Shown here: in pieces, positions 5,569 to 25,320 of the stretch
Position numbering within the stretch: the first letter of the stretch is position 1
Layout: every line of letters begins with the position of its first letter
Origin: Fragilaria crotonensis
Taxonomy: Eukaryota; Bacillariophyta; Fragilariophyceae; Fragilariales; Fragilariaceae
Assembly (NCBI GenBank): GCA_022925895.1
Contig: JAKSYS010000753.1
Location: forward strand, 1-27,417
Reading direction: 5' to 3'
DNA: 27,417 bases
Translations under genes and position numbers: made by a program
Notes under the pieces: model-generated
Database searches by the model: none
What the model saw: only the letters and a program-made list of their open reading frames with translations
What the model was told of the DNA's origin: nothing

Positions 5569-5878
5569 TACAGTTGGAGTAGATGCTGGACATGACGAAA
5601 ATGAAGTAACTACATGTATGTATAGTAGTAGTATGATAATGACAGGGGGTTACCTTCACATTTACACTTTTTGGCACAAAATGGTGAGTAAACACTGGCA
5701 ATTAACGAGTCAATTAAGTAGTTCCCGAATTAAACCCGAAAATAAGCGTTCGATTCGTCCCCCTGACGCTGCGATTTTCTTTCATGTGATCTTGTGAGAA
5801 TCTTGGAACTCTGATACGATGTTGCTTCGTTAACGCATAGCGCATCGGCGAGTGTTTGCTCAATTCTCAACCCAGAGA

Positions 5879-8386
5879 ATGGAAGCGACAAATGATGAAT
5901 CAATGTCTGTGTTACAGGTTCAGGCTATATGCGAGTGTTCTCACGAACGAGCCATTGAGCTGTTGGAGGCTGGAGGTTCCGTCGAACGTGCTGTCGATGT
6001 TTATTTCAGTCAACAACAACAACAAGAACATGAACAAGAACAACCGGATAATGAGCTTCAATTGCAAGGAACAGGTAATTTTGTTGAAATCCACGACGAT
6101 ATGGAAGAGGAATCATCAGCAGCTTTACGCGATAGAGACGTCATAGTCGACCAAAGTTCGCCGTCGTGCTCGCCTCAGAAGGAATCCGTACGCTTGCAAT
6201 CTCCGAGGCAGGAGCTAAGTTTATCTCCCCTGCCGAGCACTCGCGCTCAGGACAACGACCGGAAACCACCATGGACAGCAAGATTCCATACAAGCAACAA
6301 GAAGCCACGAATCGATGACTCTCAATATCATTCAGATGAACGGTTGCAGTATTTGAGACTTGCAGAAGCCTTTGCCGAGATGGCTGCCACGACAAAAAGA
6401 TTGGCGAAATTGGATGCTCTACAACAGGTGTTGCGCGGCATTATTGACGCTGTGGGGGGAGTTGGTCATGGCGATGAGCTATCAAGACAAAAAGATGGGA
6501 GAATTCTGCAGTATGCCGTGGAACTAATACTTGGCAACACCCTGACGCTCCAAGTGAGTGGATCTGCGGTCAGCAAGGCCGTTATGAATGTCACTGGCGT
6601 GTCGTCTACCCAACTGCGACATGCGTATCGAGAGGTGGGAGATCTCGGTGATGCTTCAGAGCGTTTCCTTCGAAACCAGCGACTTTTAATCGAACCCACG
6701 CCGTTGACGATTGTTTCAGTCTACGAGGCGCTGCAGCAAATAGCTTCGGAGGGAGGCAAGGGTAGTCAAACCGGGCGGCAAGCACTCATGGTGAAACTCT
6801 TGAGATCGTGCAAATCTTCGGAGATGAGATTTTTAGTTAGGACGTTGCTTGGAAATATGCGACTTGGTGCTAATATTCGAACAGTCCTAGCAGCGCTGGC
6901 AATGGCCGTCAACGATGACCCAACGACTAAAGATGAGGCAGTCCAAAAAGTCCAGGAGACGTTTGATTATTGTCCGCGATTGGACAAAGCGTGTCTTGCG
7001 CTACTAGTGGGCGGAGTAGCCCATATGGCCAAGACATGCACATTGCAAGTCGGTACATGTATCAACCCCATGCTCGCCAATCCAGCGCATTCATTGGATG
7101 AAGTAGCGAAAATGATGGTTGATGGGGGGCCGATTGTCGCAGAATGGAAGTATGACGGAGTCCGTTGCCAGGCACACTACACCGGTTCAAAAATGATGCT
7201 ATATTCGAGGCACATGCTCGAAAACACTGAGCAGTTTCCTGATGTTGTCCAGTTCATCACGGATGCCCGAACATCGAAGGCACATTCCTTCATTATCGAC
7301 TCTGAGATTGTTGCAATCCAACGAGGTGAGAACGGTACATGTCGACTGCTTCCGTTCCAGGACCTGTCGACACGCCGAGGAACAAAGGAAGTGAAGGATC
7401 AGATTGAAGTGACGATTTTCGCCTTCGATCTCATGTACTTGAATGGAGAATCGCTAGTCAAGAAACCCTTGTTCGAGCGACAACGATTGTTGCGAGAAAG
7501 CTTCAATGTGACAGCCAGCTTCGCCTTCGCATCTTCAATCTCAATGTCGACGTTTGACGAGCCCGCACTTACTCAGTTTTTACACAAGGCGGTGGCTGGT
7601 GGAGCTGAAGGTCTCATGGTGAAACTCACGGGGGACGGCAAGATGCCGGACCAAGATGATACCAAACCAGCAGTTGGAAGTTTGAAGGAAGGCAAGGTAT
7701 TCTGCCAATACGAATCCGGTGTGCGATCACACACATGGCTCAAAGTCAAGCGAGACTACGTGGCCGGGTTCGCGGATACAATTGACGTGGTCCCCATCGG
7801 TGCATGGTATGGGAACGGTCGCAAAGCTCAGAAAGGTTTCCTTTCCCCAGTGCTGCTGGCCGTGTACGACGAAGAAGATGAAGTATTTCGATCCATTTGT
7901 CGCTGCATGAGCTTCACCGATGCAATGTATACGTCCATGCGAGAATATTACTTTGCCGGAGTACCTTATCCTGAAGGTGTTGGTGTCAACGAAGGTGATG
8001 ATGAGTGTTCAGTGAAGGGCTCATCGTCTGACGACGAGAAGCCCGAAAGCACGGACGATGTCGACATTGCAGCTGTCAACAACACGGACAACGACGAGCC
8101 CACAGAACGTGTCAATTGTTATCCAAGCCGACCTGCGGCATTGGTTGTAACTGGCGAATCCCCATCGATTTGGTTCAAGCCATCGGAAGTCTTCGAAGTT
8201 TCGTTTTCCGATTTGACCTTGTCAAAACAGCATTCGGCAGCAGCAGGTCTTGTGGATCCTACCAGAGGAGTAGCACTGCGATTTCCTCGTTTCAAACGCC
8301 GTCGTCCTGACAAGAGGATCGATCAAGCGACGACTACAACTCAGATCGCTGAGATGTTTACCAAACAAGCAAAACAACAGCGATAA
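5879..8386 (+). CDS. LIG1: ATP-dependent DNA ligase I with N-terminal UBA-like segment
   Basis: Seals nicks in duplex DNA during replication and repair through a ligase-AMP intermediate; nuclear (inferred). Intron-free, 835 aa from the ATG at 5879. The same frame is open upstream, but only a GTG is there. Order: UBA-like helices at about 10-45 (VQAICECSHERAIELLEAGG, then AVDVYF), Gln/Glu-rich low complexity, a basic NKKPR patch, the ligase N-terminal DNA-binding domain, the nucleotidyltransferase core and the OB-fold. Motif I EWKYDGVR has adenylated Lys424. Motif III is IIDSEIVA (D474, E476), IV is EGLMVK (E577), V is WLKVKRDY (W620, K622, K624) and VI is RGVALRFPRF (R796). The C-terminus has the LIG1 signature DQATTTTQIAEMF. 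An acidic insert (about 700-745) interrupts the OB-fold. I see no canonical PCNA box. The 3' end faces the next gene 52 nt away. Confidence 0.96.
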   Translation: MEATNDESMSVLQVQAICECSHERAIELLEAGGSVERAVDVYFSQQQQQEHEQEQPDNELQLQGTGNFVEIHDDMEEESSAALRDRDVIVDQSSPSCSPQKESVRLQSPRQELSLSPLPSTRAQDNDRKPPWTARFHTSNKKPRIDDSQYHSDERLQYLRLAEAFAEMAATTKRLAKLDALQQVLRGIIDAVGGVGHGDELSRQKDGRILQYAVELILGNTLTLQVSGSAVSKAVMNVTGVSSTQLRHAYREVGDLGDASERFLRNQRLLIEPTPLTIVSVYEALQQIASEGGKGSQTGRQALMVKLLRSCKSSEMRFLVRTLLGNMRLGANIRTVLAALAMAVNDDPTTKDEAVQKVQETFDYCPRLDKACLALLVGGVAHMAKTCTLQVGTCINPMLANPAHSLDEVAKMMVDGGPIVAEWKYDGVRCQAHYTGSKMMLYSRHMLENTEQFPDVVQFITDARTSKAHSFIIDSEIVAIQRGENGTCRLLPFQDLSTRRGTKEVKDQIEVTIFAFDLMYLNGESLVKKPLFERQRLLRESFNVTASFAFASSISMSTFDEPALTQFLHKAVAGGAEGLMVKLTGDGKMPDQDDTKPAVGSLKEGKVFCQYESGVRSHTWLKVKRDYVAGFADTIDVVPIGAWYGNGRKAQKGFLSPVLLAVYDEEDEVFRSICRCMSFTDAMYTSMREYYFAGVPYPEGVGVNEGDDECSVKGSSSDDEKPESTDDVDIAAVNNTDNDEPTERVNCYPSRPAALVVTGESPSIWFKPSEVFEVSFSDLTLSKQHSAAAGLVDPTRGVALRFPRFKRRRPDKRIDQATTTTQIAEMFTKQAKQQR

Positions 8387-9391: not shown

Positions 9392-9445
9392 CAGTACCCC
9401 AGAGTGGTCATTGGTCATACTCCGTAACAGACGCACGCACTGACG
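9392..9445 (+). repeat. Direct repeat, left copy
   Basis: Begins CAGTACCCCAGAGTGGTCAT and runs through CTCCGTAACAGACG. A near-identical copy in the same orientation lies at 25267. This copy has a 7-nt internal duplication (TTGGTCA); outside it, roughly nine in ten bases agree. It lies outside TE1, on its left. Confidence 0.8.
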
Positions 9446-9514
9446 CAACTACGTATGTATATGCAAATCTTACCGACATCGCTTAACGGAGTACTCCAGT
9501 ATGCATGTATGACA

Positions 9515-9804: not shown

Positions 9805-10185
9805 ATGGTTGAGCCTGCTGCTACCTCCTGGGATCTGGCTGAACCACTTTGTGAAGGAGCTCCCTTCTATTCAGATGTGCTCAAGGCCGATCTCCACCCT
9901 GGTACATTTGTGCTGCTGGTGGGTACCAGCAGTGGCATGGTGCCTTCTAGTAGTATGACAAGGTCACTCAATACGATGGAGGACGGGACGGAAGTTGTTG
10001 CAAGAATTGTAGCTCTGGTGAGCACCAATCCATCATCTGTCAGCGTCAATATCTTCAGGTTCTTGAAAGAGGTCCAACAGACCACCGAGGGCCTCCTGTA
10101 CCCCGACGTGCTGAACGAAAATCATTTAAGGCACTTGGCGGAGATAGTACAGACAACCGAGCTACGTGTGGTTCCAACAAGACAT
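9805..10185 (+). pseudogene. TE1 + strand gene, 5' part (split by TE2)
   Basis: 127 codons from ATG 9805 up to the TE2 insertion point. The frame is open back to about 9714 with a Thr-rich lead-in, so an upstream exon is possible. The protein contains PGTFVLLVGTSSGMVPSS, then VVARIVALVST, VSVNIFRFLKEV and LRHLAEIVQTTELRVVPTRH. The last His codon (10183-10185) abuts TE2, and the same gene resumes in frame at 21825. The beta-rich pattern (a FVLL strand, an xARI strand, V-NIF, then ELRVVP) is loosely reminiscent of a BAH-like module, but that is only an impression. I recall similar, unnamed proteins as repeated in diatoms. Confidence 0.6.
10184..10185. repeat. TE2 target-site duplication, left copy (AT)
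   Basis: AT immediately left of TE2; the matching AT is at 21823-21824. The target reads CATG in the restored gene, and one AT must be removed with the element to keep the frame. Confidence 0.8.
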
Positions 10186-10210
10186 CTAAGGGGGCAAATC
10201 TGAGGTTTAA
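10186..10210 (+). repeat. TE2 left terminal inverted repeat
   Basis: 25 bp starting CTAAGGGGGCA. It equals the reverse complement of 21798-21822 except A versus C at position 12. Confidence 0.93.
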
Positions 10211-10328
10211 CCCTATATCGGAGTTTTTGCATTCGGGATATAAGAAGATAAAAACAGATACATCCGTTAAAAAACAAACCGACATATTGTTCGATGAACG
10301 AGGTCGGAGTTCGTATTCTCTCATTTTT

Positions 10329-10422
10329 ATTCTGATTTCGGAAGTTCAACATTCTGATTTCGGATTAAAATTATTAAGGAATCCGTTTCGAAAGACATTC
10401 GATGGTGACATGTAACATGTCA
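10329..10422. repeat. TE2 left subterminal repeats and palindrome
   Basis: ATTCTGATTTCGGA occurs twice in direct orientation (10329-10342 and 10351-10364). An 8+1+8 palindrome, TGACATGT-A-ACATGTCA, lies at 10406-10422. Such subterminal motifs are commonly transposase-binding sites in CACTA-like elements; that role is inferred. The rest of 10211-10586 shows no gene. Confidence 0.6.
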
Positions 10423-10586
10423 TCTTATCTGACACTGGTATAGAGAAATCTGATGTCATGTATGTCTTTATCCATGGTAATTTACTTCATGTAATTGAAT
10501 GTTGTAATAAGGTATCTGAGGTTTTTTGTAACGATATAAATAATCAAACCAATTAATCAGTTATATTTCATTCACAGTGTATGATA

Positions 10587-12035
10587 TTAAAGCTGCATAC
10601 TTGGGTGCAACGCACGTGACACATTCGTAGCAATCACATTTTCAAACAATGTATCGTAGAGTCCCATGTCATCCTTGGGGACAATTCTGCGCTTTTTGGC
10701 GTCTGGTTCACACACTTGCTTGGCACTCTTTCGATCACGTCGGCGTTCCACAAAAACATTCAACAACTCATTGTTAAAAACGCCTCCGCGTGAAACACGG
10801 TCTTCAACTACCAAATCATACAATTCATTGTACCTTTCCAAACCAGCCTCCGACCATCCAATACCGGATGTTTCGGCAACCGGCTTGCGTGCTACACTGC
10901 AACGTTTTGTTTTTCTCGAGAACGTGTACTTCGGCGCCTAAGACCAATCAAAACTCAGTTGTTAGTGGCAATCTTATTAACACCACGTTGGTGATTTCCA
11001 CACTGATAATTACAAACGTACCACAAGCGCACGTGGGGGTGCCGTGTCCAAACTGTGTCCCTGTTGATTAGTGTATATCTTTGTTTACGAGGCGACTGTC
11101 GTGAGTCATTGCGTGATACGGAAATCATAACACATACATTCAGAACTTAACGTACCTTGCGATGTTCTTCTTCAATTTCCGCCATCCACGTAGCACTGTA
11201 ATTGATTAAAACAAGCAGTAAAAACGCTTCGTCACTAATCGACAAAATGTATTCATGAAAATTGGCAGCGTTGTCACCACAGTACTGTGTCATGATAGCG
11301 TCGCGGTTCCAAATGCTTGACTTGACAACACAAGGCGCATAGATGTCGATTATATGAACATAATTAACAATGTTGGAGCGCATTGCCAATAATGTCTGAA
11401 TGTCGTCATCGCTGCCACTATTGCGTTTAAAGTTTGGGATACGACCATTAACGCCATCTGCCATATAATGTGTAAGTTTTAACAAACGACACGGTGGCTT
11501 ATACTGTTACCAACACGTACCTCGGAAACGCAATCGCATTGTTTTAATGACATTATTGCGATGATCCGTATGCGTTGCAATGACAACCTTACGCATTGTA
11601 GCCCACCATTCTAATGTTGCGTCTTTTATGGGGAGGTTGCAACTCTTTATCACAAGGCCACAAACAGAAGTAGCGCGTTGATCGTACATCCCATGTAAGT
11701 CCTTTTTAAAAAACTTGAGACGCCGGAACAATACGTTTTTAACGCAGTTACGTACCAAAATGCGCCTGCCTTCTGGCGTCATTTTACCGGTCATGTCGGT
11801 GGTTTCATGGTGAAGTTCCATGTTTGAAATACATGCACTTGGCATTACCAAATGCATCGTATCCGGTTCGACCAAAGCTTGTATTTGATCATTGGCAGGC
11901 AATGCATGATACTGTCTTGAAGGAGCACGCATGTTAGTCGCGTTGGCGTTATGATCACATTTAGTAATGCGATTCAAGTCGTCGTCAATGTCAAGGCCAA
12001 GTCCTTGAAAGTTCAGTTTTTTTATTTTTGCTCAT
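10587..12035 (-). CDS. TE2 accessory protein, three exons, function unknown
   Basis: Exons 12035-11521, 11457-11156 and 10937-10587. Introns are 63 nt (11520-11458, GTACGT...CAG) and 218 nt (11155-10938, GTACGT...TAG), and both junctions keep the frame. The ATG at 12035 (MSKNKK) joins the rest only if the A7 run (T7 at 12017-12023 on +) is one base shorter; then the spliced length is exactly 389 codons (388 aa). Pieces include RRILVRNCVKNVLFRRLKFF, EWWATMRKVVIATHTDHRNN, SISDEAFLLLVLINYSATWM and GIGWSEAGLERYNELYDLVV, then a basic stretch KKRRIVPK. This order (WWxxxRK helix, SDEAFxLLxLxNY, GWSxxGLxRYNEL) matches a family I recall as repeated in diatoms and without known function. A DNA-binding or structural role in transposition is a guess. 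Confidence 0.75.
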
Positions 12036-12741
12036 TGTTGCAACAACTAAGGATTATGACATGATGGGAAGGAAATGACATGCATTCAAATGAAATATTT
12101 GTTGCATTAATCTGCGCGAAAGTTGTTTTGAAAATAATAGTTAATTCAAATGAATTATACTTAAACAAGTTTGGGTAGAGATCGTATCATTGATGATTTA
12201 AGTAGCGCACATTATCAACTCTCCGAGTGCGTACGGGACACACATTATTATTACATAGACTAGACTAGAAGAAGTAAAAAGTACTACTGTGCAAAAGGTG
12301 TGTTTACACTGCGATGCACCAATTTGTATTACTAAGATTGTGTGCATAGTAGGGCATACAGTCGCTACCTGCAGTGCTATGCATTGGAGTACTTAATACA
12401 GTGCACGAATTTTCAGTAGCCGTACTACCGTACGCGTAGGGACATTCGCGACCCGTATTCTGAATAGCCGTTATTCCAACGTTAAGTTTCCCGACTTTTT
12501 CAACTCGTGAGATTTGCACAAAGTGAACTGTTGTTGTCCCCATTCACTCTCATCACTTCCTTCATCATTCTTTTCTCAAACTTTGCTTCTTTTCAAAAAC
12601 GATCACCCATTGTAAGTATTGCCATCAGACAGATGCCATGTGGCGATTTTGTTCGAATCAGAGGTCAAACCATTGTGTTTTTGCAAAGAAGTGACATGTG
12701 TTGAAATGAAGATCGTTTGCTGTCAGCACTGCACCGTATTG

Positions 12742-12768
12742 CTGTACAGTACTGTACAGTACTGTACA
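12742..12768. repeat. Tandem palindromic 10-mer CTGTACAGTA
   Basis: Two full units and a partial third of CTGTACAGTA. Each unit contains the palindrome CTGTACAG. It lies in the divergent spacer and could be an operator-like site; only the sequence pattern supports this. Confidence 0.75.
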
Positions 12769-12832
12769 CCATTACTGCCATATCATTCCTACGTGACTAG
12801 TGCAGTGGTGCGGCATAATTTTGTACTGTCAC

Positions 12833-12884
12833 ACGGTGCGACAGTACTGTTACATACACCATACGGTGCGACAGTACTGTTACA
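12833..12884. repeat. 22-nt direct repeat pair at 30-nt spacing
   Basis: ACGGTGCGACAGTACTGTTA plus CA occurs at 12833-12854 and 12863-12884, start to start 30 nt. The unit carries the core CAGTACTG, itself palindromic and related to the neighbouring 10-mer repeat. Confidence 0.8.
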
Positions 12885-13310
12885 GACACATTACGTAGCC
12901 CACATACGGCAAAGCAGTAACAAAACAACTCGCCACCTCTAACAACTGCGATGTGCTCCTCTCTCATGATTGCCTTCTTTGCTCTCTCCCGCAGCAGGTT
13001 CATCAAACGATTTATTTGAATTGTTTTCGTTTCTTTGTTGCTGCGGCTGTGACAATTCAACCAACCAGTATTTTTGAGGCAAGGATTCATACACCAATTG
13101 CACATTAGCTGTGGGGGCTAGTCACCTGCGAGAATCTTGCTCTTGATTGAGTATTGCTGACTCCACGTCGTGATTCACTAGCGAAGCAGCGTGTGCTTGT
13201 GGTTACGTGTATTCCTTGACAAAAAACAGTCACCAAGATTCATTCGAGGATTCTGTTTTCATCAAAGATCATTGGCTGGAGATTGTCACAGCATCGTCAT
13301 CAACCGAGTC

Positions 13311-16300
13311 ATGGAAGCCGGTCGTAAAATCGCCAAAGAAGGCAACAGCAATACGAAGGATAATGAAGATCCCACCTCAGACGAATTAAGTGAGACCGTT
13401 GCTGCCATTAATGTAACGCATGACATGAATAAAGACGAAAGTGCAGAGAGCAAAATCCCAAAATCCCAAGAAGGGATGGCGAAAATGGAAAGCATGTTTC
13501 TTGCTATTGCAAAGCTTGATCCTGTAACAAATGTGACCGACTCACTCACGAATCTTGAAACACACCAGGCGGATCATGCAATGCTTTCCTCTGGGGATGA
13601 AAACCAACCAACAATTCATGACGTTGATGCTACTGATTCCAAAGCAACAAAATCCACCAGAGCACCATTAAAGCCAACAACGTTGAACGATCCCATTGAC
13701 GTTGATGCGACCATTCTTGTTCCGCCAGATATCGATGTCCTTGCCTCTCGAGACGACGAGGTTGCTTTTATTATTCCCCAGCAACTCAAATCCGTTTATG
13801 GATTCACTGGTGTAGACGAATTTCTGATGAAGGATAACGACGCTCGCAATGCCAGGCATGCAGTGAGATCTGCATTTGATTTGCAACCAAAAACTGGCGG
13901 ATATGGAGAGATTGATCTTTACCGCTGCCGGCATTGGTACAAAGATCTCCGATTTGCATCGCTTATTGACAAACCCGGCGATGGTGATCACACTTGGTAT
14001 TTTCGCCTTGTTGTCATAAACCCATCTGCTCCCGATTGGAAACTGGTGAAAAACAAACATTTGCAGCCACGCATTGCCAAGTTCAAGGAGTTGGCACTTA
14101 AGTTTTATGTCAGTGGCTTTGCTCCAAAGTCAACAACAACATCGTCAATTCGGGTAGCATTGGAAAATCAGATTACTATCATGATTGTAACGAAGAAGAA
14201 AGCAGGACCCATCCATACGTGGAAACCGATGTGGGAAGAAAAAAATCAAGGAATGAAGGTTGTTGCAGCTGTCACCTTTAGTAGAACGTTTCCTTCGCGA
14301 AAGGAAAGCATGATGTTGCGGCATTCATTTCCTGGCTTCTTGTTGCCAAGCATGATGCAACGCACCCAACGCAAATTAATGGCTGGCGCAGGCAAGGGTT
14401 TGGATTATTTTTGATTATTGCAATGATCAAATATTGTTATGCAAATGACATTGCTTGCAAGACAGTGGAATCTTTTGCAATCCTACGAACCATCTGCGTT
14501 TCATTTCTACACCATGCTTGGGTTTAAGCAAATAAACGATCATTTCGATGATGGGTTTTCAATGCTTCCGAGACATGTGAGGATCATTTGTCAGCATTCA
14601 AATCTGCGGAATTCAAAATTTCAATCTTCCATGCATATGAAAAGGATGATCCCAAATCCGTTGTTTATCAACTCATGCATTTGCGTTCTGGATGCCTGCG
14701 TCATTTCCAACTTGCCCCTGCTGATGAAGCACAAGCTGTTTCACAGACGCATCTGACACAAACAATGCTTGGAAACTTTGGTGTGAATTTCCACCACCCA
14801 TAGTTCGCGGAATACGTCTGCACTATTCTGACTCTACTATGCGACAATTGTTTGTTGGCCTTCCTTTTGTGAAAGCATTGCTTCCACCTCCGTATGCAAG
14901 TGTTCCTCCTTTGACGACCATGTTTGTTAAAGGAGAAGTGCGTATTGAGCGTCGGCTGTTGCATACAGAAGCCCATGGAGTGAAATGGATGCAAAGTGGA
15001 GAGCTTGACTTGATGATGGCGATTCTTTTGTGCGATGGACGGTATCAAGATTTATGTTTTGTCATGCCATGCTGTTACTGTGATTCGATCGCAATTGCTT
15101 TTGCTAAGTTCGTCGAATATCAGCGTGCCTTAAAGATGGTCAAACTCGGCAAGGAACAAGATCTTGATCCTGTTAAGCTTGCGCAAGCCATCCTGGACCG
15201 ATTCAAAGCTCCTGTGACTCAACTTGCAAGCGATTATTGCAAGTTGAGAAACCACCTGGTGCAGCATGTGATTCACCCAAACCCGGGATCTTAGATCGTC
15301 GGATGATTGTCTTTCCATGCAACGAAAATGAAAGCCATTGAGTGCCACTTTTGTCTTTAACGCTGCGTACAACACGTCTGAAGCTGAAAAAGGAATAAAG
15401 ATGGATTGCGTGCGTGTTTTTTCGATACTGCAGTATGGACACAAATGGCCGACGCAATGTTCCAATTCCCAAGGCATCTTGTGGTTCTTGAATTTATGTT
15501 CGAGTTACGATGCACACGAAAAAACATTCGGACCCATCAGAAGGCAAGTTGGAGTGGCTGTCACCTTTTGGTGAAGCATTGGATGGAAATATGCTTGGCA
15601 CACCTACTTTTCCCGCACTTCATTTGCCTTTGAATTCCGACATTCTTCCGAAGCAATCCAACGATGACACTTACAATTGTGCCTTTGGTGTCATAGCAAC
15701 TTTAGCAATGGTCCTGCGTGATCTGATTGTTGATGATGCTACATTCGATGACCAATTCTCGGCGACAGCATTGGAGTTGAAAAAGTGTGCATTGAAGAAC
15801 GAAATGTATTGCGACATGCCATATAAGAATTTGCAACCACCTTGGGTATCGCTGCCCAAAATCAAGAGGGAATCTTTTCTTCCCGAGTTGCGAGAGCAGT
15901 GGTTTGTCTTATTCGACCGTTTGGCAAAGCTTCAATTCGATGTTGAGCCCAAGAAACTTTTTGCTGATTATCTTGTCCCTGATGTTTACACAAACAACTT
16001 GCCTCTAATCTCGCAATGGCCAGTTGGAAACCAAGACATTTTGTTGGAAGCAAAGGCAGCACCTTCGCCATCGCCGAAAAAGGTCCGTGCTCAGACGCAA
16101 CGAAAGCTTTTGCCAAAGGCACGGCTCAAGACGGGAACAACAATCCAATCTGATTCGACTGCGTTATCTGCAATTCATGAGCAGAATGAAGCATCAAAGC
16201 CAACAAACGACGAAGCGGCAAGAGTGAACATTAATCACTCCGACGAAGCCAATGTTTTGACGCAATCTGACCATGTGGCAACAAACGACAACAATCGTAT

Positions 16301-18252
16301 TGAAGGAGCCAATGTTTTGTTGCTAACGCCAGAAAAAGGAAGTGCGAATATGGATGTTCCCGAAAGCGCAGCTGGTGCATCAATGGAAAGGGCTGTATTA
16401 AATGCTGACGTGCAGACAGAGGCAAGCGCAAACATCACACAAAGTCAAACCTTGGCATCCGATACGAAAGCATTCGAACCAAAACCGCTCGTTGTTCCTT
16501 TGAAGCGCAAAACGGATGCAGTTGAAGATATGGCGGAGGCGTTTCTTAAGAAGATTCGAATCAAAGATCCCCTCGATGCAAAGAAACTGGAAAAGGCTAT
16601 TATTCCTTTCCCAGATCCAACACCAAAGTTCTGTACGCAATCAAAGGCACTGTGTGAGAAGCTTGCTACAGAATACGGAGTTACTGGACTACCTACACCG
16701 ACCATTATGAAACGATCGGACTATGAAGCGGAAATTGAAGAGTACATCGAGCAAAGCTTCAAGGCTTGGAAATGGCATACAAAGGCTCAGCATCAAGCTG
16801 AGCTTGATCGCTGGGCAAGGAAGAAAAATATTAATGGTATTTCCAAGGAGACCATTCGTGACATTGACATGATGATCAAAGCCTTGCAAGACGAGCGAGC
16901 AAAATTCCGAAAATTCTTTGCCAACGAATTTAAGTGCACTCAGAAAACATTGGTACAGAGTGTGAGGTTTGATAAAGCAACGAATTCATTCCGAGCGAAA
17001 TTGGTTTGGACAGAGGAGGTTCCGGTCTTTCCACCTCAAACCAACAACCAAAAGCAAAAGACTCCACAGAAAGCATCGCATTATGATTACATTCGGCAAG
17101 AAGAAGAAATCGATGTGGAGGAAGAATGGGTCAAATCTGAATTCCAACCCATGTTTGATCAAATCATAAATATGCGCCAGGAGGAATCCAACTGGACTCA
17201 GGTTCCGCGAGATGTGGAAGTCTTTATTGGTAAGAAAAAGATCATCCGAATTCGATATTGCCCAGAAAGAAAAAGCAGAATTGTCGACACTGCTGAATTG
17301 GATAAAAGAATTGAGAAGGAAATTGAAGAAATTGAAATGGAACGACGCAAATCCTCTCAGAAAAACGCAAGGAAGATCAGAGAAAGGCATTACTGATAAA
17401 CCCGCGAAAGCGGTTATATCAGAACAGAGGCTCTTGCGTTCTTCTCTGAATAAGGATGTTCTCAAAGGTTTGGATGCCACAGATGAGGATGATGACTGGT
17501 GGGATTCTCAGTTGAAGAATTTGAAGGCTTTGAAAGACCCTCCTCCACGAAAGACAATTACAGTTGAAGGCAAATGGCTTGGAAAGACATCGGATGGTAA
17601 AACGCCAACACTGGAAGAAGATTACGTCCGCAAAACCTTTGGCGATTGCTTCACTGATGAATTGAAACAATCTAAACGAGGCTGGGTTGACATCCCCGTT
17701 GGTGATTTTAAGCAATCTCGCTTGAACCAGCATCCTGAGTTAAAGGTGATTGGCGCACCTGCAATTCAATTCGTCCAATCTGAAGGAAAGGATTTGTGTG
17801 TGAGTAAGTCTCTTGCATCGGCCTTCTTTGCATTGGGATGGCACGATGATGCATCAAAGATTGACGCATTCGGCGAGGAAATCTTGAAAGGCGCAGTTGT
17901 TGATGCATTGCGGAGGGTGGTTAAGCATGCAAGAACTTTACTTCCAACTTGGATTGTGATTAAAAAACTTCCAAGTTCATTCGATTGGAAAGTTGATTTA
18001 AAAGAGGATGAGGTTGTGCTTGGCGTCTTGCAAGCCTCTGACGACAGTTGTTCTCATGCAGTTACCATCCATGGGGATTTTATCTATGATGCAAATGAGA
18101 CAATTGCTCTACGTCTGTGCGATGAGGCATTGGATTATTGCACTTCCTCCGAAACGGTGCAAAGTAAATTTGTTGCTTTCAAACTTGGCTTCCGGTTCTT
18201 TTATGAAGGTAAGAGACCATTGAGACGTTCCAAAATGAGGCTGCCTGCATAA
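13311..18252 (+). CDS. TE2 giant multidomain protein: GNAT-like, Ulp1/C48-like protease and papain-like protease; ten frame breaks
   Basis: About 1,645 codons from ATG 13311 (MEAGRKIAKEG) if frame breaks are bridged. Order: disordered charged N-terminus; a region with VVAAVTFSRTF, GAGKGLDYF and SAFHFYTMLGFKQ that fits a GNAT acetyltransferase fold (14150-14560, tentative); a spacer; an Ulp1/SENP-like domain (about 14985-15720) with WMQSGELDLMMAILL, MIVFPCNENESH (His at 15333-15338), a Gln in PKQSNDDTYNC and catalytic Cys at 15678-15680; a long charged, helical linker; and a C-terminal papain-like domain with DLCVSKSLASA (Cys 17797-17799), HAVTIHG (His 18055-18057) and YDAN (Asp 18088, Asn 18094). 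Breaks lie at 14408-14412, 14473-14476, 14577-14582, 14797-14799, 15282-15284, 15338-15340, 15417-15422, 15468-15470, 15519-15524 and 17361-17365, almost all in homopolymers. Ulp1-like proteases recur in plant and algal DNA transposons. It could alternatively be two or more genes. Confidence 0.72.
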
Positions 18253-18283
18253 AAATATGCATCATGCCCTTGATTTCATTGAA

Positions 18284-18371
18284 TAACGCAGCAAGCGTTA
18301 CAAAACCCATCAGTTGAAGGAAACAATGGGGAAAGTATGCATGACGATATCCTTATCAGAATGTAAGGATA
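18284..18371. other. Two short hairpins between convergent TE2 genes
   Basis: TAACGC-AGCAA-GCGTTA (18284-18300) and TATCCTTA-TCAGAATG-TAAGGATA (18348-18371) lie in the 138-nt gap between the two convergent stop codons. They may mark 3'-end formation for both transcripts; only position and symmetry support this. Confidence 0.4.
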
Positions 18372-18390
18372 AATTTATATAAATAATTAT

Positions 18391-21309
18391 TCAGTAATCG
18401 CCATCTTCTTCCTCCTCCTCCTCTTCTTCAACATTGTCATCGAAGTCAATTGATTTCTCTTCGTCCGAACTATCCGTATGCATTTCCTCGTCATCGTCGT
18501 CGTCAGAAGAGGATGAATATTCATCAACCGGTTTCGTGAACTCGGAAGCCCAACTGTCCAATGGCAAGGCTTCTAGAACTTTTGACATGTCGGGCTTAAT
18601 CGAAATAACAAAACATGGGCCCACAATATTGGATGGTAGAATGACAAGGTATTCAGAGGACCAACACCATTCCGTCAATAGCACTGATTGAACACCGGTC
18701 CGTTCGGTAGTGCTTTGGACTACCAAATGATATGGTTCTGCATTGAGAGCATCCACGGCACAGATCACAACAGCAGCCAGACGGCAGGGAAACGCCGTTT
18801 TGATGTACGTGTTGGTTTTGGTATCCATCACCTCGAACAAGACATTCATCCAATCGTTAATCGGATTGTCGGATTGATACGCAGGATGGCAACGAAACGT
18901 ATATTGGTCACGCACATATTCGGTACAGAAACGGACGTGTGGGCCAAATGTGGTCCACATAAATTCCATCAATGGTGTTGGCAAATGCATCAACCGCACA
19001 TCGGTCTTGGTTGCCCACTGAACGTTTAACATCATATTGGTATTCCGAAACAACACTCCAAATGTTGCATTGCCAGTTGATTCAAAAATAGATGCTGCGT
19101 CCACAGACGGGACACTTACCGCCGTGTTGGCGTCCCCCCAGATTCGTGAATGAACCTCAGCAATCATTAACGAATACGATAAACGTTGAGCTGCCTGCAA
19201 TTCGTACAAAGCACCTGTATGTCGTTTTTGAGCTCTGCGACCTGGCTGTTTTGCCACAGGAATCAACAATGACTCCGGGCGTTGTGCGCAATAATTTATG
19301 GGGGCACCGAAACGTTCCATGTCGTTAAGGATGTGCTTCAATTCATGGAATTTTGGAAATTTCCATGTCTTTTTTTTAAACAAGGGAATATCCTTCTTGC
19401 ACATCTCCATCAGTTTTGTAATCGCATCTGAGACTTGTAAAACGGATTCGTCATGATGTTCAGCTGTCCAATAGGTAGGTTGATTGAGCCACTGGTCAAA
19501 GCACAACAGTGCTTCAAACACATTAATAACCTTTCGTAAACTGGTGCGATCCTTTTGTTGCAGCGCTTTGGATAAAATGATCCACCCTTCATCATATTGG
19601 GCAAGTATGACGAACAAGAATACCAATCCCACACGCTCGGCAGCAGATATCTTTGTTAGGTTGGTAATGCCGTTGCTGAAATCGGTTGCAGGATACACTT
19701 TGCGATATGTTTGGCGGTGCGATCTGTGAAAATGAACGGCCAACGCGTCCAAGGCAGCACGTCGGCGAGTTGGTACATTTTTAAGAACCAGAAATGTGAC
19801 CTTTTCAATTAAACCTTTTCGAAACGCATGGAGAGTTTCCACCGGAGTAGCGCCAAAAATGCCGCGCACTGGATCAGCCATGGGCACGTAATCAAACGCA
19901 TTATTAAGATAATGTTGCGACCACGGCGTACGCACTTTTTGATCGGGGTTGCTGGAGATGCGTGCCATGTCTGCAGCAACCAAAAAGGAACACGTAGCAT
20001 GTGGATTATCCAATTCCGCTGCTGTGACGTTGCACGCACGACAATGGCGTTGTATCCCGGTTGTGTGTGAGCCAAAACGACCACAGAGTGCATCGCCTTC
20101 TTGCATGTCTTGTATCACAAAGAGTATGCAACAAATGACGTCAACGCAGATTGCACCTCTGGGACCAAGAGGAAGTATAACATTGCGAAGGCGGGGTTCC
20201 GAAGTAGTGAAGGAGTGCAATACAGCATAAAGTTCCGCATGGTAATTGCGAATATTGTTTCCTTGAATTTGGGTTTGGTTTTGAGCCGACGATGTCTTTT
20301 GTTTTGGCAAAAATCCATGATAACCCCAGGCCTGAATTTTGCGACGAAAGGGTTCTTTAAAAATTGCTGGCGTAAACATGTATGGCTTCAAGGAAAAGCG
20401 ATCATTGCCGGTGACAGATGTGCGGTCAATCCATTGGATAATTGGCACAAAGAATTGACGTTCAGGATTGGTGATCATACGTTCATATGCATCACGATAC
20501 ACTTGACCAGAGATGGCATCACCAAGTTCACCTTGTGGTGATGCGTATGGCAGCAAGGGATTAACGGGGTCAATTAACAAGTTGTCAGCTGTCATCAGTT
20601 TTGGGTTCTGCAACAACCGCAAGAGTTGAGGCACAAAGTCAAACACAATAACATCACGAGGAGGACCATGAGGAGTGGTAACGTTTACAACCGATGGCAA
20701 GAATTGCGTTGCATTTTTCATACCCGAAAACAACAGATCAATGCTTCGCGAACGCGATAAACCACCATCAGGATAAAATGAATACCTTGCGGCATTGGCA
20801 CCTCTGGCCCATCTAAGCACAGAAGCAAATGCGTAGTCTGGAGCATTCATATCGTCCAATAATTTTAACAACGCAACCGTCCACTTTTGATCATCAGTGT
20901 ACAGCCATGGCTCTTCTTCATTGGAATCAACAACAAGGGGCAGGGTTGCATTTACTTCCCATGCGTAGCCTTCATCATTCGCGGCAAAGTCATCATCAGA
21001 AGGCGCGTCAGTTGTGTTTGTCGCCTCATCGTCGAGCATCGATGCCGACCACGTTTGTGTATTATGCATGTTGGCATTGTTAGGGTTTATCACGTCACGT
21101 CTCATCAGAGATGAAGGTATGGTGGAGACAAACACCACGTCATCTGCAATTGGTTGGTGTCTTGTGTCACCACCAGAAGAGGATTGATCAATGAACGACA
21201 GACAGGATGGGGAAAGTGCAAAATGCATCGTGTATCCTTTTTCATTGGAAAAGGATTGGCGTCGACTTCCACAGTCAGGATTGTGACACACATATCTTGA
21301 AGCCGACAT
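18391..21309 (-). CDS. Plavaka-type (CACTA/KDZ-related) transposase
   Basis: 972 aa, uninterrupted; the ATG at 21309 is chosen because MSASRYVCHNPDC starts the N-terminal zinc finger (C8, C13, H29, C36), while the open frame upstream has no ATG. RNase H-fold DDE features: FFVPIIQWIDRTSVTGND with first Asp D295; ILPLGPRGAICVDVICC; a DALCGRFGSHTTGIQRHC stretch with C423/C426 in the Cys insertion seen in TNP2/Plavaka enzymes; then FGATPVETLHAFRKGL (about 485-500); and WKFPKFHELKHILNDMERFG followed by RPESLLIPVAKQ, where E679 is the likely last catalytic acid. The acidic tail has a long Glu run. Catalyses cut-and-paste excision and insertion of TE2. Its intactness contrasts with the broken neighbour and suggests recent activity. 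Confidence 0.88.
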   Translation of the reverse strand: MSASRYVCHNPDCGSRRQSFSNEKGYTMHFALSPSCLSFIDQSSSGGDTRHQPIADDVVFVSTIPSSLMRRDVINPNNANMHNTQTWSASMLDDEATNTTDAPSDDDFAANDEGYAWEVNATLPLVVDSNEEEPWLYTDDQKWTVALLKLLDDMNAPDYAFASVLRWARGANAARYSFYPDGGLSRSRSIDLLFSGMKNATQFLPSVVNVTTPHGPPRDVIVFDFVPQLLRLLQNPKLMTADNLLIDPVNPLLPYASPQGELGDAISGQVYRDAYERMITNPERQFFVPIIQWIDRTSVTGNDRFSLKPYMFTPAIFKEPFRRKIQAWGYHGFLPKQKTSSAQNQTQIQGNNIRNYHAELYAVLHSFTTSEPRLRNVILPLGPRGAICVDVICCILFVIQDMQEGDALCGRFGSHTTGIQRHCRACNVTAAELDNPHATCSFLVAADMARISSNPDQKVRTPWSQHYLNNAFDYVPMADPVRGIFGATPVETLHAFRKGLIEKVTFLVLKNVPTRRRAALDALAVHFHRSHRQTYRKVYPATDFSNGITNLTKISAAERVGLVFLFVILAQYDEGWIILSKALQQKDRTSLRKVINVFEALLCFDQWLNQPTYWTAEHHDESVLQVSDAITKLMEMCKKDIPLFKKKTWKFPKFHELKHILNDMERFGAPINYCAQRPESLLIPVAKQPGRRAQKRHTGALYELQAAQRLSYSLMIAEVHSRIWGDANTAVSVPSVDAASIFESTGNATFGVLFRNTNMMLNVQWATKTDVRLMHLPTPLMEFMWTTFGPHVRFCTEYVRDQYTFRCHPAYQSDNPINDWMNVLFEVMDTKTNTYIKTAFPCRLAAVVICAVDALNAEPYHLVVQSTTERTGVQSVLLTEWCWSSEYLVILPSNIVGPCFVISIKPDMSKVLEALPLDSWASEFTKPVDEYSSSSDDDDDEEMHTDSSDEEKSIDFDDNVEEEEEEEEDGDY

Positions 21310-21797
21310 CACGATAATAGGATATGCTTGTTGTTTGTGATTAGATTGGCTGCTTGGTGAGTTTGTGAGTAATAAGGCGCAGACAAAAAACTTTGATTCT
21401 TTTACCAAAATAAAAAACGGATGGACGTCAAATTGTGGAGGAAGAAAGGGCACAGTCAAACGAGCATAACAACGTCTTTTTCCCTTGTGCAAAGAAACAA
21501 TTCCGTGTTAAAGAATGCAGGCTATCAGAAAAAGAGATACAGAAATACGACCTAGCATAAATCGATGAAGTGGCATTTTTGTATGAAGGTTTGCTACATA
21601 TATCCGTGAACCAAAACTGAGTTTTCAGAAGTCGGGTGACGTTTACATAATTATCCGGATAGAACATCTGTCAATCACAAAACTCCGAAAACCCATGAGA
21701 ACAATGAAAACGTTAAAACTTCCAGTATTTAGTACTAAGGCATAAATAAATAGCAATAATTTTGCCAGTATATGTGAAAATGTTATCAGAACTATTA
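21310..21797. promoter_or_regulatory. TE2 right subterminal region / transposase promoter
   Basis: 488 nt between the transposase start and the right inverted repeat, A+T-rich. It must contain the transposase promoter. I see no gene and no clear copy of the left subterminal ATTCTGATTTCGGA motif. Confidence 0.4.
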
Positions 21798-21822
21798 TTA
21801 AACCTCAGATGTGCCCCCTTAG
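21798..21822 (-). repeat. TE2 right terminal inverted repeat
   Basis: Minus-strand reading starts CTAAGGGGGCAC. It pairs with 10186-10210, 24 of 25 identical, and is followed by the AT duplication at 21823-21824. Confidence 0.93.
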
Positions 21823-21824
21823 AT

Positions 21825-21977
21825 GGAGATGTTGTGAACTTGTCTTTCGTCTTCACAATGGCATCACTTCAGGATCCATCAAGTCTGTTCTTCACATGCC
21901 AGGGAATGATCATGGCATTTCTATTGCGATTTAGATTTGATCCAGCAGCTTCACCTCGCACCATGGCAATCCGGTAA
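21825..21977 (+). pseudogene. TE1 + strand gene, 3' part (split by TE2)
   Basis: 50 codons continuing the gene begun at 9805: GDVVNLSFVFTMASLQDP, then SLFFTCQGMIMAFLLRFRFD and a stop at 21975-21977. It begins on a codon boundary, so deleting TE2 and one AT copy rejoins His127 to Gly with no frame change, giving 177 aa. The last codons overlap antisense to the end of the - strand TE1 gene. I suspect the true 3' ends of both TE1 genes were lost by an internal deletion near 21960. Confidence 0.6.
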
Positions 21978-25266: not shown

Positions 25267-25320
25267 CAGTACCCCAGAGTGGTCATACTCCGTAACAGAC
25301 GGACGGACTCACGCACGCAC
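25267..25320 (+). repeat. Direct repeat, right copy
   Basis: Begins CAGTACCCCAGAGTGGTCAT and continues through CTCCGTAACAGACG into an ACGGACTCACGCACGC tail. It matches 9392-9445 apart from the 7-nt duplication there. It lies 35 nt outside the right TE1 terminus. Confidence 0.8.

Follow-up and report, generated by a model that had tools for sequence, protein, structure and literature searches.

The stretch analyzed here, hereafter the window, comprises 27,417 nucleotides of the diatom Fragilaria crotonensis (assembly GCA_022925895.1, JAKSYS010000753.1). It corresponds to contig C728 of the genome, which totals 62.1 Mb in 881 contigs (below, C-numbers designate contigs and L-numbers loci). The window harbors a complete Plavaka-type transposon of 11,643 bp (positions 10183–21825), in which a transposase gene on the reverse strand (18391–21507) converges with a long gene on the forward strand (13311–18252). 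The product of this second gene, which we refer to as the three-module gene, is composed of a predicted GNAT acetyltransferase domain, a region resembling Ulp1/C48 peptidases, and a C-terminal domain with a Cys/His/Asp-Asn pattern. We found that a Plavaka DNA transposon lineage in this diatom has conserved the three-module gene as its second gene, and that its three regions are under purifying selection in the order GNAT, C48-like, and Cys/His/Asp-Asn.

As for the transposon, an earlier reading made from the letters of the window (the sequence-only reading) had recognized its type correctly but had drawn it too small. The transposase scores above the Pfam cutoff for the Plavaka family PF18759 (36 bits versus 26.3, E 6.1e-9), and displays a CxxC motif at residue 488 and HxxxH motifs at residues 591 and 720. 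The full element is bounded by 28-bp terminal inverted repeats (TIRs), the left one starting with CATCT (10183–10210, forward) and the right one differing by one mismatch (21798–21825, reverse), and is flanked by a 2-bp GA target site duplication (10181–10182 and 21826–21827). The same ends are found at different insertion sites in C449 and C686, with CA and AA duplicated, and related ends delimit the C2/C454 subfamily, with TA and TT duplicated. Hence, 2-bp duplications are present in all five insertions for which both ends could be read, and all differ. The termini, CATCT..AGATG, conform to the CA..TG ends that define Plavaka elements together with 2–3-bp target duplications, and depart at the fifth base from the CATCA..TGATG termini reported for PlavakaB (PMC12730594). 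When up to three mismatches are allowed, the TIR pattern occurs at 16 places in the genome, while the reversed control occurs at none.

If positions 13311–18252 are read through, the three-module gene encodes a product of ∼1,650 residues. The N-terminal region with the GNAT domain (13794–14588), which contains the motifs WRRQGFG (at 14384) and FHFYTMLGF (14499–14525), is followed on the same strand by a conserved stretch that is 48% identical in the C2 subfamily (14779–15132) and by the C48-like region (15273–16076). Next come a linker with a conserved charged region (16719–17703) and the C-terminal domain with a papain-like pattern (17746–18210). The linker has no convincing family, its best matches being a GAPDH in the PDB (E 0.023) and a Pfam family at 0.0036 in one of six members. 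The residues that had been picked out as catalytic by the sequence-only reading are encoded where it placed them. In the C48-like region, His is CAT at 15336–15338, Gln is CAA at 15654–15656, and Cys is TGT at 15678–15680, while the C-terminal Cys, His, and Asp lie at 17797, 18055, and 18088.

The window copy of the gene is frame-broken. Its coding signal changes frame several times, including at a TGA directly after the His codon, and it is split into open reading frames (ORFs) at 13182–14414, 14285–14527, 14427–14756, 14552–14803, 14728–15294, 15332–15574, 15492–17396, and 17170–18252. These breaks are probably for the most part assembly errors, as in an unpolished long-read assembly of repeats, because indels outnumber mismatches in two of the three comparisons between near-copies. 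C2 and C454 differ over 12.2 kb by 23 indels and 4 mismatches (14 of the indels single-base, 14 within runs of at least three), and the window and C686 differ over 11.7 kb by 42 indels and 34 mismatches (31 of the indels single-base, 28 within such runs). These same numbers do not favor old decay as the main cause. Since the window and C449 differ over 8.3 kb by 22 indels and 104 mismatches, with no more than 89% identity across the left 3.4 kb, real divergence is also present. Spliced introns are not favored either, because C449 and C872 read through the same stretches.

Other copies reveal how the modules are joined. A frame of 1,414 residues in C449 covers the GNAT domain, the C48-like region, and the linker. 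In C686, a 914-residue ORF with the GNAT domain and C48-like region and a 567-residue ORF with the linker and C-terminus are in the same reading frame, separated by 94 codons that contain five stops. A second subfamily has overlapping long ORFs, of 1,145 residues in C872 (N-terminus to linker) and 821 residues in C259 (behind the C48-like region to C-terminus). At 12 of the loci examined, a single frame contains both the GNAT and the C48-like motifs; as two of these loci overlap, they represent 11 places. The proposal of a gene with all three regions is supported, and the regions did not turn out to be separate unrelated genes in other copies. Host genes lying in tandem can likewise be rejected, as order and strand are kept across subfamilies and long frames span adjacent modules.

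The same architecture, which the sequence-only reading had suggested looking for in other diatom Plavaka elements, recurs throughout this genome. Clustering of the matches yields 72 places for the C-terminal domain, 64 for the GNAT domain, and at least 39 for the transposase, the transposase counts being lower bounds because they come from 44 scored candidates out of 628. The GNAT domain is found upstream, on the same strand and within 8 kb, at 54 of the 72 C-terminal places. A convergent transposase lies within 6 kb downstream at no fewer than 37, and at least 32 have both. Conversely, the C-terminal domain is beside 37 of the 39 transposase clusters scored. The unpaired remainder consists of 18 of the 72 C-terminal places, which have no GNAT match upstream, and 10 of the 64 GNAT clusters, which have no C-terminal domain downstream. 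Linkage is largely confined to one type of Plavaka, as judged from the best 78 of 92 Pfam matches, assigned to types by hand from the profile range matched. A C-terminal place lies no more than 6.5 kb away from 31 of the 36 matches of this type and from 1 of the 42 of the other type, the remaining 41 having no three-module gene in range. Of the five unlinked matches of this type, four (C874, C108, C390, and C869) are close to a GNAT match.

We determined ratios of nonsynonymous to synonymous substitution rates (dN/dS) by the Nei–Gojobori method for each domain in seven copies, saturated or zero-dS pairs giving no value. All measurable pairs are between 0.05 and 0.36, with the exception of C872/C259 in the C48-like region, which shows 0.52 on few changes. 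Values for the GNAT domain are 0.10–0.23 where dS is below 1.5 and 0.20–0.36 above, and those for the C-terminal domain are 0.09–0.18 at dS of ∼1.2–2.2, rising to 0.36 for C872/C259, a close pair. In the C48-like region, the three close pairs yield 0.16, 0.26, and 0.52, versus ∼0.05 near dS saturation. These low ratios show that protein-level constraint acts on each of the three domains. Together with the genome-wide recurrence of the same order, this purifying selection puts the architecture beyond chance.

The presence of a GNAT acetyltransferase domain, as had been proposed, is well supported by profile searches. Curated Pfam cutoffs are passed in at least two relatives, by PF13673 in C874 (24.7 bits versus 23.6) and by PF00583 in the distant C312 (24.7 bits versus 20.7). 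At E ≤1, acetyltransferase models PF13508 and PF13673 match nine and eight of 10 members, respectively. When the GNAT profile is searched against the PDB, also at E ≤1, it retrieves 52 distinct sequences, the best being NAA50 (E 3.3e-5). Of these, 47 are named acetyltransferases, and the other five (1tiq, 1z4e, 2cnm, 5zgn, and 3i9s) we take to be GNAT proteins as well. Among the 13 distinct rows that have letters at the acetyl-CoA-binding motif R-x-x-G-x-G, 12 have the Arg and first Gly and all 13 the second Gly, while the Tyr of the FY..GF motif is found in 11 of 13. The domain falls below every Pfam cutoff in C449, C2, C872, and C347, and the frame-broken pieces of the gene in the window match no Pfam family, so its identity there is taken from the relatives.

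As for the C-terminal domain, it has a set of invariant residues. Gln 17776 (in an oxyanion-type place), Cys 17797, His 18055, Asp 18088, and Asn 18094 are kept in all 27 distinct near-full sequences, 24 from the main family and 3 distant ones, forming two deep clades (33 distinct rows when fragments are included). Papain-like (clan CA) thiol hydrolases have Gln, Cys, His, and then Asp or Asn in this order. The papain-like reading, drawn from this residue pattern, is weaker than the C48 reading of the preceding region. The sequence-only reading was correct on the conserved residues of a second Cys/His/Asp-Asn domain. No papain-like family was matched in Pfam, NCBIfam, PHROGs, or the PDB. Identity with OTU proteases, which have a D-x-x-C motif and a His with Asn/Asp directly after, is not favored, because an Asp near the Cys is not kept in every sequence and the Asp after the His is 11 residues away. 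No relatives were found with the C-terminal alignment in viral and genome contig collections, or with the C48-like alignment in the viral contig collection, all of which are non-eukaryotic. The domain may represent a family of cysteine hydrolases that has no described member.

The C48-like region has conserved residues as well. All 12 aligned main-family copies keep its His, Trp, Gln, and Cys, so the presumed catalytic Cys is conserved across copies in this region (12/12) as in the C-terminal domain (27/27). In a wider set including fragments, His is found in 25 of 29 distinct rows with letters, and Gln and Cys in 26 of 27 each, the rows falling outside these counts being partial or frame-broken reads. 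We then compared the region with C48 proteins encoded elsewhere in the genome, using a profile of 8 of 12 fetched stretches. Eight family ORFs, each aligning at the Gln–Cys motif, outranked the entire set of 665 reversed decoys, with a best E of 0.025 versus 3.9 for the highest-ranking decoy. Profile–profile alignment by hhalign in local mode scored 29.8 for a long alignment, above the best of 100 column shuffles (21.6). A search of the PDB with a short alignment returned yeast Ulp2 as the sole match, at E 0.42. With profile tests that are mixed, as detailed below, kinship of the region with Ulp1/C48 is only probable. Separately, several of the C48 stretches from elsewhere in the genome (L034, L037, L040, and L041) have in common an N-terminus of the FPGDPR type and might come from a different mobile family.

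A much diverged element type extends the picture. At L027, L028, L062, and L091 (C687, C312, and C317), the order GNAT, C48-like region, and C-terminal domain is kept, and the type also has a zinc-finger-like Cys pattern between modules, noted by eye and matching no Pfam family. In C317, a frame of at least 1,135 residues runs from the GNAT domain through the C48-like region into this pattern, where the examined stretch ends. No transposase was recognized in the stretches examined beside these loci.

Besides the transposase and three-module genes, the transposon contains a third gene on the reverse strand (10590–12031). It consists of three ORF pieces (10590–10937, 11150–11506, and 11510–12031) and is conserved in the C2/C454 subfamily, where the longest matches are 40–56% identical. 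In Pfam, nothing over a cutoff was found for these pieces. The transposon is adjoined by an ORF for a DNA ligase of 844 residues (5852–8386, forward), with a UBA-like match at its N-terminus (E 1e-4), and is flanked by a 36-nucleotide direct repeat (9412–9447 and 25280–25315), the copies of which are 92% identical and 15.9 kb apart. Searched at the gathering threshold, Rfam gave no match in the whole window. Elsewhere in the genome, silicon transporters gave matches of up to 646 bits, in support of a diatom as host.

What might the three-module gene do for the transposon? By analogy with transposon-borne Ulp1 and OTU domains, the C48 peptidases of Crypton elements, and the TET/JBP enzymes of Plavaka elements, we lean toward a single multifunctional accessory protein, which would favor transposition by editing the host's acetyl and ubiquitin/SUMO-type marks or by processing transposon proteins. 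The predicted GNAT domain would acetylate a protein, such as histone tails, a repair factor, or the transposase itself. Acting on silencing or repair proteins, the two thiol-hydrolase-like domains would strip off ubiquitin or SUMO-type modifiers; alternatively, they would cut proteins of the transposon. Overall, the element would stay expressed and be able to transpose.

Several results weigh against this multifunctional accessory protein. All three modules are found in one unbroken frame at none of the loci examined, and we therefore infer a single polypeptide from overlaps. Whole ORFs of C314 and C687 have no Pfam GNAT match. For the C-terminal domain, the best matches are 0.036 in Pfam and 0.005 in PHROGs (each in 1 of 13 members), 0.071 in NCBIfam, and 0.5 in the PDB, the latter to an unrelated protein, and two single-sequence AlphaFold models of the window domain are unusable (predicted local distance difference test scores of 37.1 and 36.0). 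The C48-like region accounts for most of the remainder. PF02902 is its best Pfam family but stays below the cutoff (17.3 bits versus 20.7, E 0.0044, 3 of 11 members), and the presumed place of the catalytic Asp, assigned by motif, reads Cys (FRYC) in all 12 copies. The genome's 63 Pfam C48 matches are all more than 10 kb away from the 72 C-terminal places. The eight ORFs retrieved by the profile of other C48 proteins amount to four pairs of near-copies from four subfamilies, at least six further family ORFs with the region, including those of the window's own subfamily (L015 and L016), missed E 10, and the reverse search ranked a reversed decoy first. Similarly, hhalign scored 27.2 with the short alignment, versus 31.4 for the best of 60 column shuffles, and 9.9 with the long alignment in global mode, versus 17.3 for the best of 100, while the sole PDB match of the longer alignment is an unrelated protein. 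Lastly, the C48-like His is replaced by Asp or Asn in the distant C312 and C317, and protease activity is therefore not universal. These are also the only members with an Asp at the presumed catalytic place (IHYD and VYFD). The protease-like module that had been proposed thus keeps its His, Gln, and Cys, but lacks both a Pfam match over the cutoff and the expected Asp, which is why we term this region C48-like and do not assign it to the C48 peptidases.

A more specific version of the accessory-protein reading is tentative. In it, one protein would write acetyl marks and erase ubiquitin/SUMO-type marks with two cysteine hydrolases, a C48-like one with a rebuilt triad and one from a new papain-like family, thereby opening chromatin, disarming silencing, or steering repair. 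Just as tentatively, this machine would be old enough to be common to the much diverged second element type.

The same two Cys/His domains within one gene could instead belong to a self-processing polyprotein, in which they would cut their own long protein or the transposase, while the GNAT domain would act on transposon proteins, with no anti-silencing role. A very long product with long linkers, and the zinc-finger-like Cys pattern that lies between modules in a distant relative, would suit such a polyprotein. We nevertheless regard it as unlikely, given that the Ulp1 and OTU domains of published transposons are tied to ubiquitin and SUMO pathways in the accessible parts of PMC2836005. The Cys at the presumed Asp place in 12 of 12 copies, and the loss of the His in C312 and C317, would fit yet another scheme, in which the GNAT domain is active while the C48-like and C-terminal modules, as protease folds devoid of activity, serve to bind and bring in chromatin marked by SUMO or ubiquitin. 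This, too, is improbable, since binding alone would not need the invariance of the C48-like His, Gln, and Cys in 12 of 12 copies and of five C-terminal residues in 27 of 27. That the modules are captured fragments of host GNAT and protease genes, mere passengers with no transposon function, is very hard to maintain, for although transposons frequently capture genes and the genome holds 63 C48 matches, the order is kept in diverged subfamilies under purifying selection, with 31 of 36 matches of one Plavaka type linked to it.

If the three-module gene encodes the accessory protein that we favor, its architecture suggests that a transposon brings its own tools for editing host regulatory marks. 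A conserved, selected gene in dozens of copies offers a concrete handle, because writing and erasing of marks can be assayed in one protein, which can also be assayed for its effect on the silencing of its own element. Protease domains are already known in DNA transposons; their combination with a GNAT domain and a second thiol-hydrolase-like domain is apparently new. In the portions of the open-access literature covered, PMC9297572 and PMC11244446 included, we found no description of these three domains in one transposon gene, or of a Plavaka element with an acetyltransferase or protease gene.

The closest functional precedents would be transposon-borne Ulp1/OTU domains and anti-silencing proteins. 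Ginger1 elements similarly have a cysteine protease domain (Ulp1 or OTU) with links to ubiquitin/SUMO, accompanied in one instance by a PHD finger. There, however, it forms a fusion with an integrase-like transposase, with one protease type per listed element and no GNAT domain mentioned in the accessible text, which proposes roles in transposition or repair via ubiquitin and SUMO, still only as a possibility (PMC2836005). Mutator-like elements, cited in the same text, are DNA transposons with a ULP1 gene, but belong to another superfamily and are mentioned with the Ulp1 domain alone (PMC2836005). Closer in host, the CryptonF and CryptonS elements of oomycetes are stramenopile transposons encoding a C48 peptidase besides their recombinase. 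In contrast to the diatom element, they are tyrosine recombinase elements, and neither a GNAT domain nor the C-terminal Cys/His/Asp domain is mentioned in the sections available (PMC3212892). VANC, encoded by VANDAL elements in Arabidopsis, is a transposon protein counteracting host silencing (PMC10398659 and PMC5735166). It is a sequence-specific DNA-binding protein and is not known to be an acetyltransferase/protease fusion. The nearest relatives among elements are fungal Plavaka (PlavakaB), which share a Plavaka transposase, CATC..GATG-like termini, 2–3-bp duplications, and, in some cases, an extra enzyme gene. That gene is a TET/JBP dioxygenase thought to counter silencing, also found in fungal elements other than Plavaka, and the words “protease,” “Ulp1,” and “acetyltransferase” do not occur in the main text describing them (PMC12730594). 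In place of the dioxygenase, the diatom lineage has a predicted GNAT and two protease-like domains. The proposed role would therefore extend the idea of Plavaka-borne anti-silencing enzymes, put forward for TET/JBP in fungi (PMC12730594), to protein marks and to diatoms.

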